Origin: a virus
Length of the DNA: 30,017 nt
Reading direction: 5' to 3' (one strand)
Virus record (IMG/VR): IMGVR_UViG_3300022074_000247
Span: 1-30,017 of that record
The notes below the pieces were generated by a model that saw only the letters and a list, made by a program, of their open reading frames with translations, was not told where the DNA came from and made no database searches. Within the stretch, counting starts at the first letter, position 1. Every line of letters begins with the position of its first letter. Of the stretch, positions 18,584 to 29,964 are shown piece by piece. The translations under genes and the position numbers were made by a program.

Positions 18584-18600
18584 GTTAGTGGTTCACTAAC
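18584..18600. repeat. 17-bp palindrome copy 1 (centre GTT)
   Basis: GTTAGTG-GTT-CACTAAC. It overlaps the last bases of the small basic protein gene and directly precedes the AAGGAG of the SNF2 gene on the - strand. One of eight exact-arm copies. Confidence 0.9.
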
Positions 18601-18841
18601 CTTTTTTCTTGTAGTTGCGGCTGCGGTTCTTCTTTGGGCTTTCTAGCCGTGTACCGTCTTTATTTTTGCCGCCCTTGGATAGTGGCTTCTTGTGGCTTAC
18701 GTCTTTGCCTTTACGGCTTACCCCTTTTTTGTCATAAGCGCGTCTGGCACGTTGGCGTTCCATCCTGTCAGAATGTTCGCCCCTCGCTTTTTGTTTTTTG
18801 TATTCTTTCTTGTATGGTCTTGGTGATTTTGTGTATGGCAT
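18596..18841 (-). CDS. Small basic HNH-like phage protein
   Basis: 81 residues, very rich in Lys and Arg. The start ATG immediately follows the stop of the nuclease gene (TAGATG), with GGGAG seven bases upstream. The core reads MERQRARRAYDKKG, then GKDVSHKKPLSKGGKNKDG, then SPKKNRSRN, which is the spacing of a minimal HNH-type motif (D-V-x-H-x-x-P-L-S-x-G-G ... N-R-S). The full set of zinc ligands seen in HNH endonucleases is absent, so it may be a degenerate or minimal DNA-binding relative. Lying between a RecB-like nuclease and an SNF2 helicase supports a DNA-processing role. Function is not assigned. Confidence 0.7.
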   Translation of the reverse strand: MPYTKSPRPYKKEYKKQKARGEHSDRMERQRARRAYDKKGVSRKGKDVSHKKPLSKGGKNKDGTRLESPKKNRSRNYKKKG

Positions 18842-19507
18842 CTAGTTGCTCCCGTTGTGAACACACTCCAGAACAACACAATGTCGGCGGCATAACCCAC
18901 TGGGATGGGCATTCCAGACATCTTTTTCATGTGCAGTCTCCATGCGTTTGTAGTTAGACAACCACTTACCCCAAAGAACTGGCATCGCATCGCGGTGGTA
19001 AGTGTCCTTAACAAGGTCTCTAGATATAACAAACAGCAACCCCGCCATCACTTTCGTGACTTCGGGGAAATGCTTGAACGTGGCTAGTGCCATAAGTTCC
19101 AGCTGACCTTTGTCCGCATACTTGGCTGATTTACTGGTCTTGTAGTCCACCACCCTAGCAGTATCGCCATCCATGATAACCAGATCAGCGATACCACGCC
19201 ACCAAACTTTCTTATCGTAGAAGTCACAAGGCTCTAGATCTTCGGTAAGCCCCATCTTTATCTCACATAACTTGTCACCACGCTTTGCCTTGAGGCTGTC
19301 CAACGTGTCTTGCGCAAACTTGAAGTTGTCGGGCAGAGGTGTCCCATCTCGCACGTATTCTTCTGCGGCAAGATGAAACGCCGTGCCATACGACATGGCA
19401 TCGGTCTCCGGCTCGGTATAATCCTTGGCGATCTTGAGGTGGTAGAATTTTTTGGGGCATTGTTCAAACGCCTTAATTCTACTGAACGACCACGGTTTTA
19501 TACTCAT
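18842..19507 (-). CDS. PD-(D/E)XK nuclease, RecB/Cas4-like
   Basis: 221 residues. The start overlaps the stop of the polymerase gene (ATGA). Motifs in order: SFSRIKAFEQCPKKFY with C17, GTAFHLAAEE (H45), RGIADLV (D108), VVDYKTSK (D121, K123), and GQLELMAL (Q135). These form the RecB-type nuclease active site. Three more cysteines at the C-terminus (C206, C210, C215, in SGLCRRHC..LEC) together with C17 could hold an iron-sulfur cluster as in AddB and Cas4. It probably acts as a DNA exonuclease in phage recombination or end processing. No cas genes or CRISPR repeats are nearby, so a CRISPR role is not supported. Confidence 0.85.
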   Translation of the reverse strand: MSIKPWSFSRIKAFEQCPKKFYHLKIAKDYTEPETDAMSYGTAFHLAAEEYVRDGTPLPDNFKFAQDTLDSLKAKRGDKLCEIKMGLTEDLEPCDFYDKKVWWRGIADLVIMDGDTARVVDYKTSKSAKYADKGQLELMALATFKHFPEVTKVMAGLLFVISRDLVKDTYHRDAMPVLWGKWLSNYKRMETAHEKDVWNAHPSGLCRRHCVVLECVHNGSN

Positions 19508-21333
19508 TCACAATCCCCATACGACTTGCCAGTGCCACTCTCGCAGTTGATGGGCAGACCTTCTGCCCAGTCGGGTATCCAACGCATACAGTCCTCCACA
19601 TACGCTTGCGCCTCACCGACTTTTTCATCGGGAACACAAGCTACAACGGAGTCATGCACAGTTAGCACTACGCGATGTTTCTTGGCTATTTTTAGCATTT
19701 GTTCACCAATGATGCAACGCGCTATGGCTTGGCATACGTTCTCTATGACCTTGCCGCCATAGATACGGTTGCGTCCTCTGCGTGTCTTGTAGTGAAACTC
19801 CACGCCTTTTTCGGTGGTATCGAACTTGAGATCGTCATAGCGCAACAACAGCCCCGACGGCAGGCGTATGGCTGTCTCCTCTGGCACTAACTCCAGAACC
19901 GAACCGTAACCTAATGATATCTTGCGCGATGAGTGTAGCTCAACGAGGGCTTGTTGTGCGTCACGCCATAACTTGTTTATCTTCCAGTTGGCTTCGCGAT
20001 AGATGTTGATGACGCGCCGTGCCTCGTCCAGTTCCATATCGAACCCAAAGTTCTTGAGTTGCGCTTGGAACTTGAGTGCGCCCATGCCGTAGCCAGCACC
20101 AAGGATGGTGGTCTTACCGACAAACCGTTGGTCTTTGGTCACATCAGACTCCTGCACACCATAGATACGTGATGCCATCTTTACATACACATCCTCACCA
20201 GCCTCGAACGCGTGCGTGAGATCGTCCTGCTCTGCAAGCCACGCCAGCACTCGCGCTTCGATCTGCGCAGAGTCTGCATCTATCAGCGTGTACCCGGGCG
20301 GCGCAATGATACTACGCTTTAACTTCTTACCATTTACGCCACGGCTAGGCAGGTTCTGCAGGTTGATTTTATCATCACCGCCCCACCTACCAGTATGCGC
20401 GGCGTAATACCTGACAGGTACAGGCAACGTGCCTCGCTTGGCTATGTCGATAAAGCGTTGTGTCCGTGTCTCTTCCAACGTGGACTTCGTACCTAACCGT
20501 GCCGCTACCAACGCCTGCACCTGCGGGTTTTCATGGTCTGCTAACGCCTTGAACCCCTCGTCCGACTTGGCAAACGCAAATGTTTCTTTTTCGGTTGTAG
20601 GGCTGATCTTCATGGGCGGTTCAACGCCAAGCGACTTGAGCAGTTCCGCAAACTTGGGATTGCTCATCAAATCTTCTTTGACCACTCCGGCACTCTCCAA
20701 CAACTCATCCTTACGGTCACGAGTTTCTGTGAGATGCTGTTCCAGAAGGCCCAGATCCAAGTCTAACACTGGCTGTATGAACATGCGCAGCGTGAGATCA
20801 ATCAGTTTTAGTTCCTTGCGTGGAAAGTCCTTCGCCATGATGGTGAACAACTTGTGAGTAAGGTCAACATCATTGACGCAGTAGTCGCCATACTGTGCTA
20901 GTTCAGCTTCCGTAAAGTCCTCGCGCCTCTTGCCGAGTGCCTGTACGACCTCCGTTCCCTTAACACCGACGCCATACTTTTCACTGACCGCCCTGAGACT
21001 TGCGCTAGTTTCAACCCCATGTATAGCGCGGGCAATACACATAGTATCGGCATACACGCGAGGGCGAATATTATACCGCCAGTTAAGAATAGCACCATCA
21101 AACATGGTGTTATGACAAAGTAACATAGCATCCGACCAATCGAATGACTGCAGATACTCCTTAATCTGTTCGTGTGTACCACTAGCCCACTCCGTGTCTC
21201 CACTGTTCATTTTGATGCCCACGCCGATCACCTCAAAACGAGGATCACGGACGTAGGCTTCGGTGGTTAGTTTCGACAGGGAAAACTCCCTGTCGTAGTA
21301 GGTTTCAAAGTCGAGGGTGATTAAGTCCATCAC
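19504..21333 (-). CDS. Family A DNA polymerase with 3'-5' exonuclease
   Basis: 609 residues. The start is GTG 21333 or the adjacent ATG 21330; both overlap the upstream stop and follow GGGGAG. The N-terminal exonuclease has LDFETYYD (Exo I), CHNTMFDG (Exo II) and YGDYCVNDVD (Exo III). The polymerase domain has motif A DADSAQIEARVLAWL, motif B with the K..(x)..GAGYG pattern (VGKTTILGAGYGMG), and motif C LTVHDSVV. There is no 5' nuclease domain, which fits its length against ~930 residues for bacterial Pol I and matches phage replicative PolA enzymes. It is the replicase of this phage, encoded among primase/helicase, SSB and nucleases. Confidence 0.95.
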   Translation of the reverse strand: MMDLITLDFETYYDREFSLSKLTTEAYVRDPRFEVIGVGIKMNSGDTEWASGTHEQIKEYLQSFDWSDAMLLCHNTMFDGAILNWRYNIRPRVYADTMCIARAIHGVETSASLRAVSEKYGVGVKGTEVVQALGKRREDFTEAELAQYGDYCVNDVDLTHKLFTIMAKDFPRKELKLIDLTLRMFIQPVLDLDLGLLEQHLTETRDRKDELLESAGVVKEDLMSNPKFAELLKSLGVEPPMKISPTTEKETFAFAKSDEGFKALADHENPQVQALVAARLGTKSTLEETRTQRFIDIAKRGTLPVPVRYYAAHTGRWGGDDKINLQNLPSRGVNGKKLKRSIIAPPGYTLIDADSAQIEARVLAWLAEQDDLTHAFEAGEDVYVKMASRIYGVQESDVTKDQRFVGKTTILGAGYGMGALKFQAQLKNFGFDMELDEARRVINIYREANWKINKLWRDAQQALVELHSSRKISLGYGSVLELVPEETAIRLPSGLLLRYDDLKFDTTEKGVEFHYKTRRGRNRIYGGKVIENVCQAIARCIIGEQMLKIAKKHRVVLTVHDSVVACVPDEKVGEAQAYVEDCMRWIPDWAEGLPINCESGTGKSYGDCE

Positions 21334-21863
21334 TCATCTGACTCCCCATGCACAAGTTCTGCCGCCAACGCCATGTACCCAGAGGCATCGCGGAAGTTCT
21401 CTATACTTGGGTTCTGGTGCGACCTAGCAATCTTCAAGAGCGCCATCATAACGGGTACCTGCTCTGGCTGTATGTCATAACCTGTATAGCCGTGCCAGAG
21501 TTGAGCAGTCAGATCGGCGTTAGACCAAAACTCTCCATGCTCTTTCTCTCTGTCGCCAGTCACCAAGTCCTCGGCTTCCCGCAACACCTTCGTGCGTACC
21601 CTTTCCTTGACTGGTTTGTTCTCCAGCGCGTAGGTGTTGTAGGTGTTACCAGAGTTATCCTTGAAGGTTTCTGTAATAACAGGTTGTATATTGAGTGCTT
21701 CCTGCTCAAACACTTCTCTTGCTGTACCGCTTTGTGAACGAATGTTGTAGACGTACTTGACGCTACACCCACAAACTTTCGCTACGTTCTTTGGGTTTGC
21801 CAGCGGGTGATCCGCAAGATATTTAGCTACCTTCTCGTATTTTGTCTTTTTTGTTCGTGCCAT
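21330..21863 (-). CDS. DUF6378-like protein with N-terminal HTH
   Basis: 177 residues, with GGGAG six bases before the ATG. The N-terminal ~45 residues resemble a helix-turn-helix (KVAKYLADHPLANPKNVAKV, CSVKYVYNIRSQ). The C-terminal ~85 residues carry LREAEDLVTGDREKEHGEFW, TAQLWHGYTGYDI, VPVMMALLKIARS and FRDASGYMALAAEL, the pattern I associate with DUF6378, a common phage domain of unknown function. Its helical, acidic character resembles MazG-type all-alpha folds, but this is only a resemblance. It ends at the polymerase start and begins inside the zinc-ribbon gene (41-base overlap), so it is part of the replication operon. Confidence 0.75.
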   Translation of the reverse strand: MARTKKTKYEKVAKYLADHPLANPKNVAKVCGCSVKYVYNIRSQSGTAREVFEQEALNIQPVITETFKDNSGNTYNTYALENKPVKERVRTKVLREAEDLVTGDREKEHGEFWSNADLTAQLWHGYTGYDIQPEQVPVMMALLKIARSHQNPSIENFRDASGYMALAAELVHGESDE

Positions 21864-29786: not shown

Positions 29787-29912
29787 TTCTGATAGGCAAA
29801 CCTCGGCATTGCCTGATATGCGTCACCACGCGCCACCACAAAAACATAATGTTCTAACAGTGGCGAAAAAAAACGAACATTACGGAACATTAGAAAGAAC
29901 ATTAGAACATTA

Positions 29913-29945
29913 GGCTCAACGCGGCTCTGAGAACTGGCTTCAAAC
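29913..29945. repeat. 33-bp direct repeat, first copy
   Basis: Begins GGCTCAACGCGGCTCTG and ends GGCTTCAAAC. It is identical to 29985-30017, with a 72-base period; a palindrome copy lies between the two. Confidence 0.9.
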
Positions 29946-29947
29946 GT

Positions 29948-29964
29948 GTTAGTGGGTCACTAAC
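29948..29964. repeat. 17-bp palindrome copy 8 (centre GGT)
   Basis: GTTAGTG-GGT-CACTAAC between the two 33-bp direct repeats. Its centre is the reverse complement of copy 7. Confidence 0.9.

Follow-up and report, generated by a model that had tools for sequence, protein, structure and literature searches.

Dispersed palindromic sites in the early region of uncultured phages are conserved in position and covary with a putative regulator of an unrecognised family

The IMG/VR virus record IMGVR_UViG_3300022074_000247, a fragment of 30,017 b classed as linear and analysed here in full (the window), carries in its early region eight dispersed copies of the palindrome GTTAGTG-N3-CACTAAC. Comparison with related viruses established that such sites recur at conserved positions, that the palindromic word falls into classes that differ among phages, and that the word covaries with a phage gene adjoining the early operon. 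We propose, with a probability of about 0.6, that the palindromes are operators of the regulator encoded by this gene, a protein from a family outside the libraries searched, which probably acts as a homodimer and most likely halts or thins transcription of the early operon at many points.

All eight palindromes had been listed by an earlier reading made from the letters alone (the sequence-only reading), and both their exact arms and their coordinates were confirmed, as were the three classes of centre when strand is ignored (AAC/GTT in three copies, AAG/CTT in three and ACC/GGT in two; Table 1). In 100 dinucleotide shuffles of the window, the mean and the largest number of exact copies were both 0. 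A tolerance of three mismatches added a single match, at 18953-18969, so the family has no degenerate penumbra; the virion arm, from which copies were said to be absent, was still empty at this tolerance. As the window is itself a linear-classed record of 30,017 b, confinement to the early arm had to be examined in other genomes, and it was found again in two same-word relatives of about 62 kb, with all nine copies of G021 lying in 48,831-60,788 and all eight of G016 in 32,006-42,619. The last palindrome of the window is bracketed by two copies of a 33-nt direct repeat (29913-29945 and 29985-30017), the second of which is the exact contig end; this looks like an assembly break, and the count of eight may therefore be too low. 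The placement first described, with four copies in gaps, two in coding ends and two upstream of the promoter, stood in part: the sites at 29702 and 29948 are upstream of the promoter and those at 26090 and 28500 are in gaps, but the site at 29394 falls within the opening codons of the operon's lead gene (encoding a DUF3150 protein) and not in a coding end, the sites at 18584 and 23877 overlap upstream genes at their 3′ ends, and that at 27361 meets a stop codon by one base.

Relatives were collected from IMG/VR through the lead protein (48 loci) and through PolA (at least 80 loci), and 50 whole records were picked by us out of 127 loci; three relatives, including G021 and G016, are of about 62 kb. 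The GTTAGTG word was present in 27 of the 50 chosen records, and a backward control gave none. Many relatives carry this word in up to 10 copies with matching spacing (ten in G012, nine in G021 and G002, eight in G016, G018 and G050, seven in G001 and six in G044). Each fetched record holds essentially one dispersed palindrome family, located at matching gene borders, and the word differs among phages: TTTACGGAATTCCGTAAA in G005 (10 exact copies), TTTACGCA-N2 in G033 (three plus one hybrid), GATAAGT-N4-ACTTATC in G042 (10, of which seven are GATAAGTAATTACTTATC), GTTAGGGA-N2 in G027 (eight) and G037 (seven), GTAGTGA-N1-TCACTAC in G036 (11, of which nine are TGTAGTGA-N1-TCACTACA), GTTAGTA-N3 in G048 (four) and ACCTGC-N3 in G041 (seven). 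Additional words were observed in L016, L046/L047, L048, L051, L052, L053, L076 and L188, and the GTTAGGGA class occurs with N1 or N2 spacing among relatives. The half-sites are mostly of the form nnTAnnn, with ACCTGC and GTACGTC as exceptions. When the sources were scanned for fifteen words, two classes with at least two copies each were found together only in G021 and its locus copies L042 and L175. The centre triplets are more alike within than between genomes (same strand-collapsed centre in 25% vs 15% of pairs), as if homogenised or weakly selected.

The positions of the sites are retained among these phages. After removal of thirteen loci taken as repeats of the same or a near-same contig, 45 of 49 records had a site of the phage's own word at the N-terminus of the lead gene or adjoining it. 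Such a site also occupied the DUF3150/AAA gap in 35 of 42 records, the border of the VWA gene and the next gene in 16 of 18, and the nuclease/helicase border in 11 of 15. Because sites were chosen by exact pattern in this survey, their 100% arm identity is by construction, and an unselected best-match count was used in its place. The best match at each border of same-word records, whatever its quality, was either exact or at least five mismatches away, with nothing intermediate, and the exact fractions at the four borders were 24/28, 7/8, 10/10 and 7/25. The first of these is the DUF3150/AAA gap, where the remaining four records had nothing nearer than five mismatches; conservation at equivalent gaps in relatives, which the sequence-only reading had offered as a check, is thereby borne out. 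Across these 24 genomes the two 25-nt flanks of the site have a mean pairwise identity of 58% and 51%, compared with 63% for its centre.

The site within the lead gene offers a comparison between word and peptide. It lies in codons in 44 of 49 sources (slightly upstream in L048 and L051, absent from L021 and L053, with a partial gene in L055), and the residues encoded there are mostly V-S-x-x-L-T in GTTAGTG phages, T-L-R-N-S-V-N in a different frame in TTTACGG phages, and L-G-K-S-L-T in the GTTAGGGA phage L049. A swap of word class alters the lead-gene residues encoded by the site, and the comparison indicates that it is the nucleotide word, not the peptide, that is conserved. Single-mismatch sites show a pattern of their own, as 16 of 20 have T to G at half-site position 6 and are GTTAGTG/GTTAGGG hybrids; counted as distinct sequences, which are not all independent, these are 10 of 14. 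L016 combines TTTACGG and TTTACGC halves in hybrid sites.

The candidate partner, about 160-230 aa long, is encoded by an open reading frame (ORF) just outside the window, in the interval that separates the early operon from the divergent terminase-side genes, a location checked in the records used for BLASTP comparison. With the G021 regulator as query, BLASTP matched six further same-word records at 44-93% identity but not G005, a relative whose early proteins are 88-97% identical to those of the window in 15 of the 19 with a match; the same-word records G000 and G044 stop before or near the regulator place. An iterated profile search gave 70 ORFs, 47 of them unique, and 45 of these 47 are on contigs with a word at two or more copies; L181 and L184 have one palindrome copy each, near the regulator. 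In a partial Mantel test of 37 loci, regulator distance correlated with word difference given DUF3150 distance (r 0.51, reached by 0 of 5000 permutations), and the reverse test, of DUF3150 given regulator, gave r -0.09 (reached by 3764 of 5000); left out of this set were L184 (no class), the truncated regulators of L134, L045 and L035, the second paralogue of G027 and any locus lacking a DUF3150 match. For pairs with DUF3150 identity of at least 80%, the mean regulator identity was 66% when both members carry the same word (97 pairs) and 21% when their words differ (15 pairs). A later regulator-based scan revealed 52 further loci (at least seven on contigs met earlier), with the GTTAGTG word in 49; of the other three, L245 has the GTTAGGGA family, L244 one GTTAGGG-type copy and L228 neither. 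Of 41 testable regulators, 35 have a site no more than 300 nt ahead of their start; a further six regulators are too close to a contig end. In L049 (G027) the regulator gene is present twice, at 6209-6733 and 7739-8287, and one palindrome class was found.

Two other proteins were considered as partners of the word. Of the G021 genes that lie in the region covered by G005 and have distant homologues in same-word phages, only two score worse against the close other-word G005: the regulator and a 158-aa gene (G021_060). The 158-aa gene was rejected, as it is missing from the same-word records G001 and G000. The sequence-only reading had named as possible binder the helix-turn-helix (HTH) protein encoded at 16299-16589, which was rejected because it is nearly identical across phages with different words, sharing 94% and 97% identity with its counterparts in G005 and G033 (TTTACGG and TTTACGC palindromes) and 74% with that of the same-word G021. 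The rest of that operator or stoperator reading, namely dyad operators dispersed through an operon and kept at equivalent gaps, has become the leading one. We regard the operator system as genuine, with sites that are conserved in an all-or-none manner and a regulator of an unrecognised family that covaries with them; the function of the system is what we infer.

Binding of DNA by the regulator family is suggested by its gene position together with word covariation. Searches with 41 members found no HTH family in Pfam, with weak single matches to PHROG 12501 (E 0.0038) and NCBIfam SoxR (E 0.0059); a sequence search of PDB gave nothing below E 0.29, and tblastn with a limit of E 10 found no match in any of 50,697 named phage records. 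The AlphaFold2 model is all-helical (predicted local distance difference test, pLDDT, 88.8; predicted template modelling score, pTM, 0.62). Its best Foldseek matches had E 3.8 (PDB) and 0.068 (BFVD), and the top VIA match, with Z 6.1 across 46 residues, is taken as a common helix arrangement. The best-conserved stretch includes residues 96-116 of the G021 protein, part of a long helix in the model. A scan by short peptide patterns of one genome each of 84,980 bacterial and archaeal species yielded 122 pattern matches for the regulator, of which 0 were confirmed. Terminase relatives numbered eight in the same species genomes, the best (77%) on an 8.9-kb contig of a Rhodobacterales metagenome-assembled genome that holds neither regulator nor recurrent palindrome. 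A literature search at listing level found no account of this repeat family or regulator.

Several observations weigh against the proposed regulator-operator pair. The AAA/VWA border holds a site in just 17 of 39 records, no palindromic site overlaps the early promoter, and six of the 41 testable regulators have no exact upstream site (G021, both of G027, L012, L053 and L189). As to homology among the regulators, BLASTP links the other-word regulators of G027 (39%) and G036 (32%) to that of G021, those of L016 (TTTACGC) and G005 (TTTACGG) joined the family only through profile iteration (first E 3.9e-5 and 6.7e-7), the G042 candidate has no homology to the family, and words other than GTTAGTG account for just 10 of the 37 Mantel loci. 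In addition, G021 holds two foreign TTTACGGAATTCCGTAAA sites beside its nine GTTAGTG sites, within an inserted G005-like segment. For the protein, no convincing Pfam, PHROGs or NCBIfam family was found among the 41 members (isolated matches at E 0.002-0.007), and the all-helical model has no convincing PDB match. The support as a whole comes from sequence comparison. As to the G005-like insert, it corresponds to L042 9734-10044 (G021 49395-49705), begins at the in-codon site and includes a 62-aa ORF; it could reflect recombination, at an operator, or misassembly (an assembly chimera).

Under the proposed mechanism, a regulator homodimer would probably read two 7-bp half-sites, mostly nnTAnnn, at a spacing of 1-4 bp. 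It would bind upstream of its own gene, on both flanks of the early promoter, within the opening codons of the lead gene and then at one gene border after another along about 12 kb. Bound regulator would most likely stop or thin early-operon transcription at many points, as a roadblock and possibly by looping, and such a multi-point block would result in graded early shut-off and in rejection of co-infecting phages of the same word. Binding, dimerization, repression rather than activation, the roadblock and exclusion are steps that we infer. A broader and more tentative proposal, to which we give somewhat less than even odds, is that this novel family of DNA-binding regulators with an unrecognised fold constitutes an immunity-type system, in which a lineage-specific dyad word at gene borders and in codons serves to halt early transcription and exclude same-word co-infectors, in which a word changes when the regulator is replaced or by way of hybrid half-sites, and which operates in phages where lysogeny genes were not found.

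The same regulator-operator pair might instead work by looping or occlusion at the early and regulator promoters, with the intra-operon copies acting as titrating decoys and not as roadblocks. The two sites that bracket the early promoter, about 180 nt upstream and 85 nt downstream, are spaced by 308-309 both in the window and in seven of its close relatives, which suits such a loop, as does the frequent upstream site of the regulator gene (35/41). However, the intra-operon sites are as exact as the promoter-proximal ones and are kept at orthologous borders across more than 10 kb (VWA 16/18, nuclease/helicase 11/15), which exceeds what decoys would need, although retention is patchy at the AAA/VWA border (17/39). 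We consider this arrangement unlikely.

The sequence-only reading had also raised the alternative of hairpins acting at the RNA level. In its specific form, the covarying protein would be an RNA-binding repressor of translation that recognises transcript hairpins of 7-8 bp by ribosome-binding sites. Four window copies lie 12-45 nt ahead of start codons and several sites abut ribosome-binding sites; moreover, some genomes have a single centre orientation relative to transcription (8 C:0 G in L011, 6:0 in L032, CACG in 6 of 8 in L047), and sense centres over 35 loci are more uniform than in all 1000 random strand flips, orthologous sites not being independent. The orientation is nevertheless the opposite in L044 (0:4), both orientations occur in the window, and the C:G ratio is 78:53 over 23 representatives (p 0.036) and 30:18 in a stricter nine-genome subset (p 0.11). 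The loops are not conserved, with 29 triplets among 220 sites. Single mismatches break the pairing of the stem in 19 of 20 sites and give a G-U wobble in one (7 of 42 possible changes would), and the L016 hybrids produce G.G or C.C clashes. Some sites also lie ahead of the early promoter, or in the space that separates divergent operons. We thus favour DNA over RNA as the level at which the sites act, and the hairpin reading appears improbable.

The early operon, on the minus strand, is of replication type and encodes DUF3150, AAA ATPase, DUF2201/VWA, PolA, PD-(D/E)XK nuclease, SNF2 helicase, a gp2.5-type single-stranded DNA-binding protein and a DUF927 primase. The lead gene likely starts at ATG 29437, with AAAGGAGAA before it, rather than at TTG 29503. 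Its promoter, as TTGACA-17-TATAAT, was discernible by eye in seven of eight aligned relatives (not in L014), with exact hexamers in four. A promoter at every palindrome was considered and rejected, as no -10/-35 pattern appeared in the pooled flanks of 294 sites, a pool in which TTTACG-class copies were counted twice. The window had no Rfam match at the gathering threshold and no tRNA in a tRNA search, and megablast of 17.0-29.9 kb found no named-phage relative. Separately, GAACATT occurs nine times, counting both strands, in the early intergenic region of the window (29580-29911) and clusters at the equivalent place in G001, G002, G021, G005 and G042 regardless of palindrome word, with just three copies there in G016; they may represent iterons of an origin, or another protein may bind them. 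On the virion side, 5904-12416 encodes a protein of 2170 aa with a C-terminal match to a DarB-like antirestriction family (PHROG 10089, E 5e-84).

Table 1. Palindromic sites, early-operon genes and early promoter in the 30,017-nt window.
Feature	Coordinates	Strand	Remarks
Palindromic site, centre GTT	18584..18600	strandless	Overlaps the stop of the 18596-18841 gene; SNF2-helicase gene starts 12 nt on
Palindromic site, centre AAG	23877..23893	strandless	Within the 3′ end of the 23873-24250 gene
Palindromic site, centre AAC	26090..26106	strandless	In the gap preceding the 25114-26073 gene
Palindromic site, centre AAG	27361..27377	strandless	In the gap preceding the DUF2201/VWA gene; final base in the AAA gene stop codon
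Palindromic site, centre AAC	28500..28516	strandless	In the DUF3150/AAA gap
Palindromic site, centre CTT	29394..29410	strandless	Inside codons 10-15 (VSEALT) of the lead gene (DUF3150); the -10 box is about 85 nt upstream
Palindromic site, centre ACC	29702..29718	strandless	About 180 nt upstream of the -35 box
Palindromic site, centre GGT	29948..29964	strandless	33-nt direct repeat on both sides; contig end
SNF2-type helicase gene	17033..18571	-	Pfam; last operon gene preceded by a site
DUF2201 metallopeptidase/VWA gene	26110..27315	-	Pfam
AAA ATPase gene	27377..28471	-	PHROG 1297 ATPase, E 4e-49
DUF3150 gene	28520..29437	-	First gene of the early operon; Pfam DUF3150, E 2e-5, slightly short of its cut-off
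Early promoter TTGACA-17-TACAAT	29494..29522	-	Discernible by eye in seven of eight aligned relatives; TTGACA/TATAAT exact in four

With regard to life style, nine records (three of about 62 kb and six partial) were searched for three families, and tyrosine integrase PF00589, resolvase PF00239 and ParA-type PF13614 were each found in 0 of 9. As no regulator was confirmed among the 84,980 species either, the usual immunity repressor of lysogeny is not indicated, and early shut-off or exclusion of co-infecting phages would be the more natural role. If the proposal is true, a whole operon came under control of the stoperator kind through another protein family and symmetric sites, in phages that gave no integrase, resolvase or ParA in these searches. 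The nine natural operator words with their matched proteins would then form a data set on how the specificity of a DNA-binding protein and that of its many targets change together, and the words may help to sort these uncultured viruses by their ability to exclude each other.

Part of the proposal can already be tested in two isolated phages of similar layout. Synechococcus phage MinM2 has GGTTCAG-N1-CTGAACC in 13 exact copies in a 36.8-kb locus (L193), of which, by annotation, eight are in gaps, two overlap 3′ ends and three are within coding sequence, and in four more at record positions 1-30,000; its gene at the corresponding place has no detectable homology to the regulator family. Rhizobium phage RHph_TM3_14A has GTTACC-N6-GGTAAC, with 12 copies in a 49.9-kb locus (L191), some within genes. 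In addition, TTACCT-N4-AGGTAA dyads were observed in RHph_TM3_14A (L191, L255), and the dyad families of both this phage and MinM2 (L193, L254) extend beyond the early genes. In KPP25, no word reached three copies in the 49.9 kb scanned.

Among known systems, the operators of lambda CI and Cro are 17-bp dyads bound by a dimer and cluster at two promoters, whereas the sites described here extend along about 12 kb, and none of them overlaps the early promoter. The centromere of N15 consists of dispersed inverted repeats within phage genes, and a likeness to it was part of the sequence-only reading. By extension, the palindromes might be scattered partition or replication sites of an extrachromosomal prophage, which would suit both their dispersal in early genes and the failure to find a tyrosine integrase. 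Nevertheless, with a ParA-type ATPase in none of the nine records the likeness is weak, the regulator matches include no ParB-type family and the palindromes track gene borders, so that such a role is very improbable.

The stoperators of Cluster A mycobacteriophages provide a closer comparison. As described in two papers, L5 stoperators are 13-bp, asymmetric, one-way sites bound by a monomer with HTH and Stoperator domains; Cluster A phages such as L5, Bxb1 and Trixie carry many dispersed repressor sites in short intergenic spaces, mostly off promoters; and the site word and the repressor vary together between phages (PMC6550527, PMC9283540). Relative to these accounts, the present phages likewise have many dispersed sites, mostly in short intergenic spaces and off promoters, although in the early region only and not genome-wide, and here too the site word covaries with the regulator sequence. 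In contrast to the stoperators so described, the sites are exact dyads of 17-18 bp whose centre orientation is inconsistent across genomes, one site usually lies within codons, the protein falls outside known families and an integrase was not found in the nine records. The Cluster A stoperators are the closest working analogue of this system, which its symmetric sites set apart from them.

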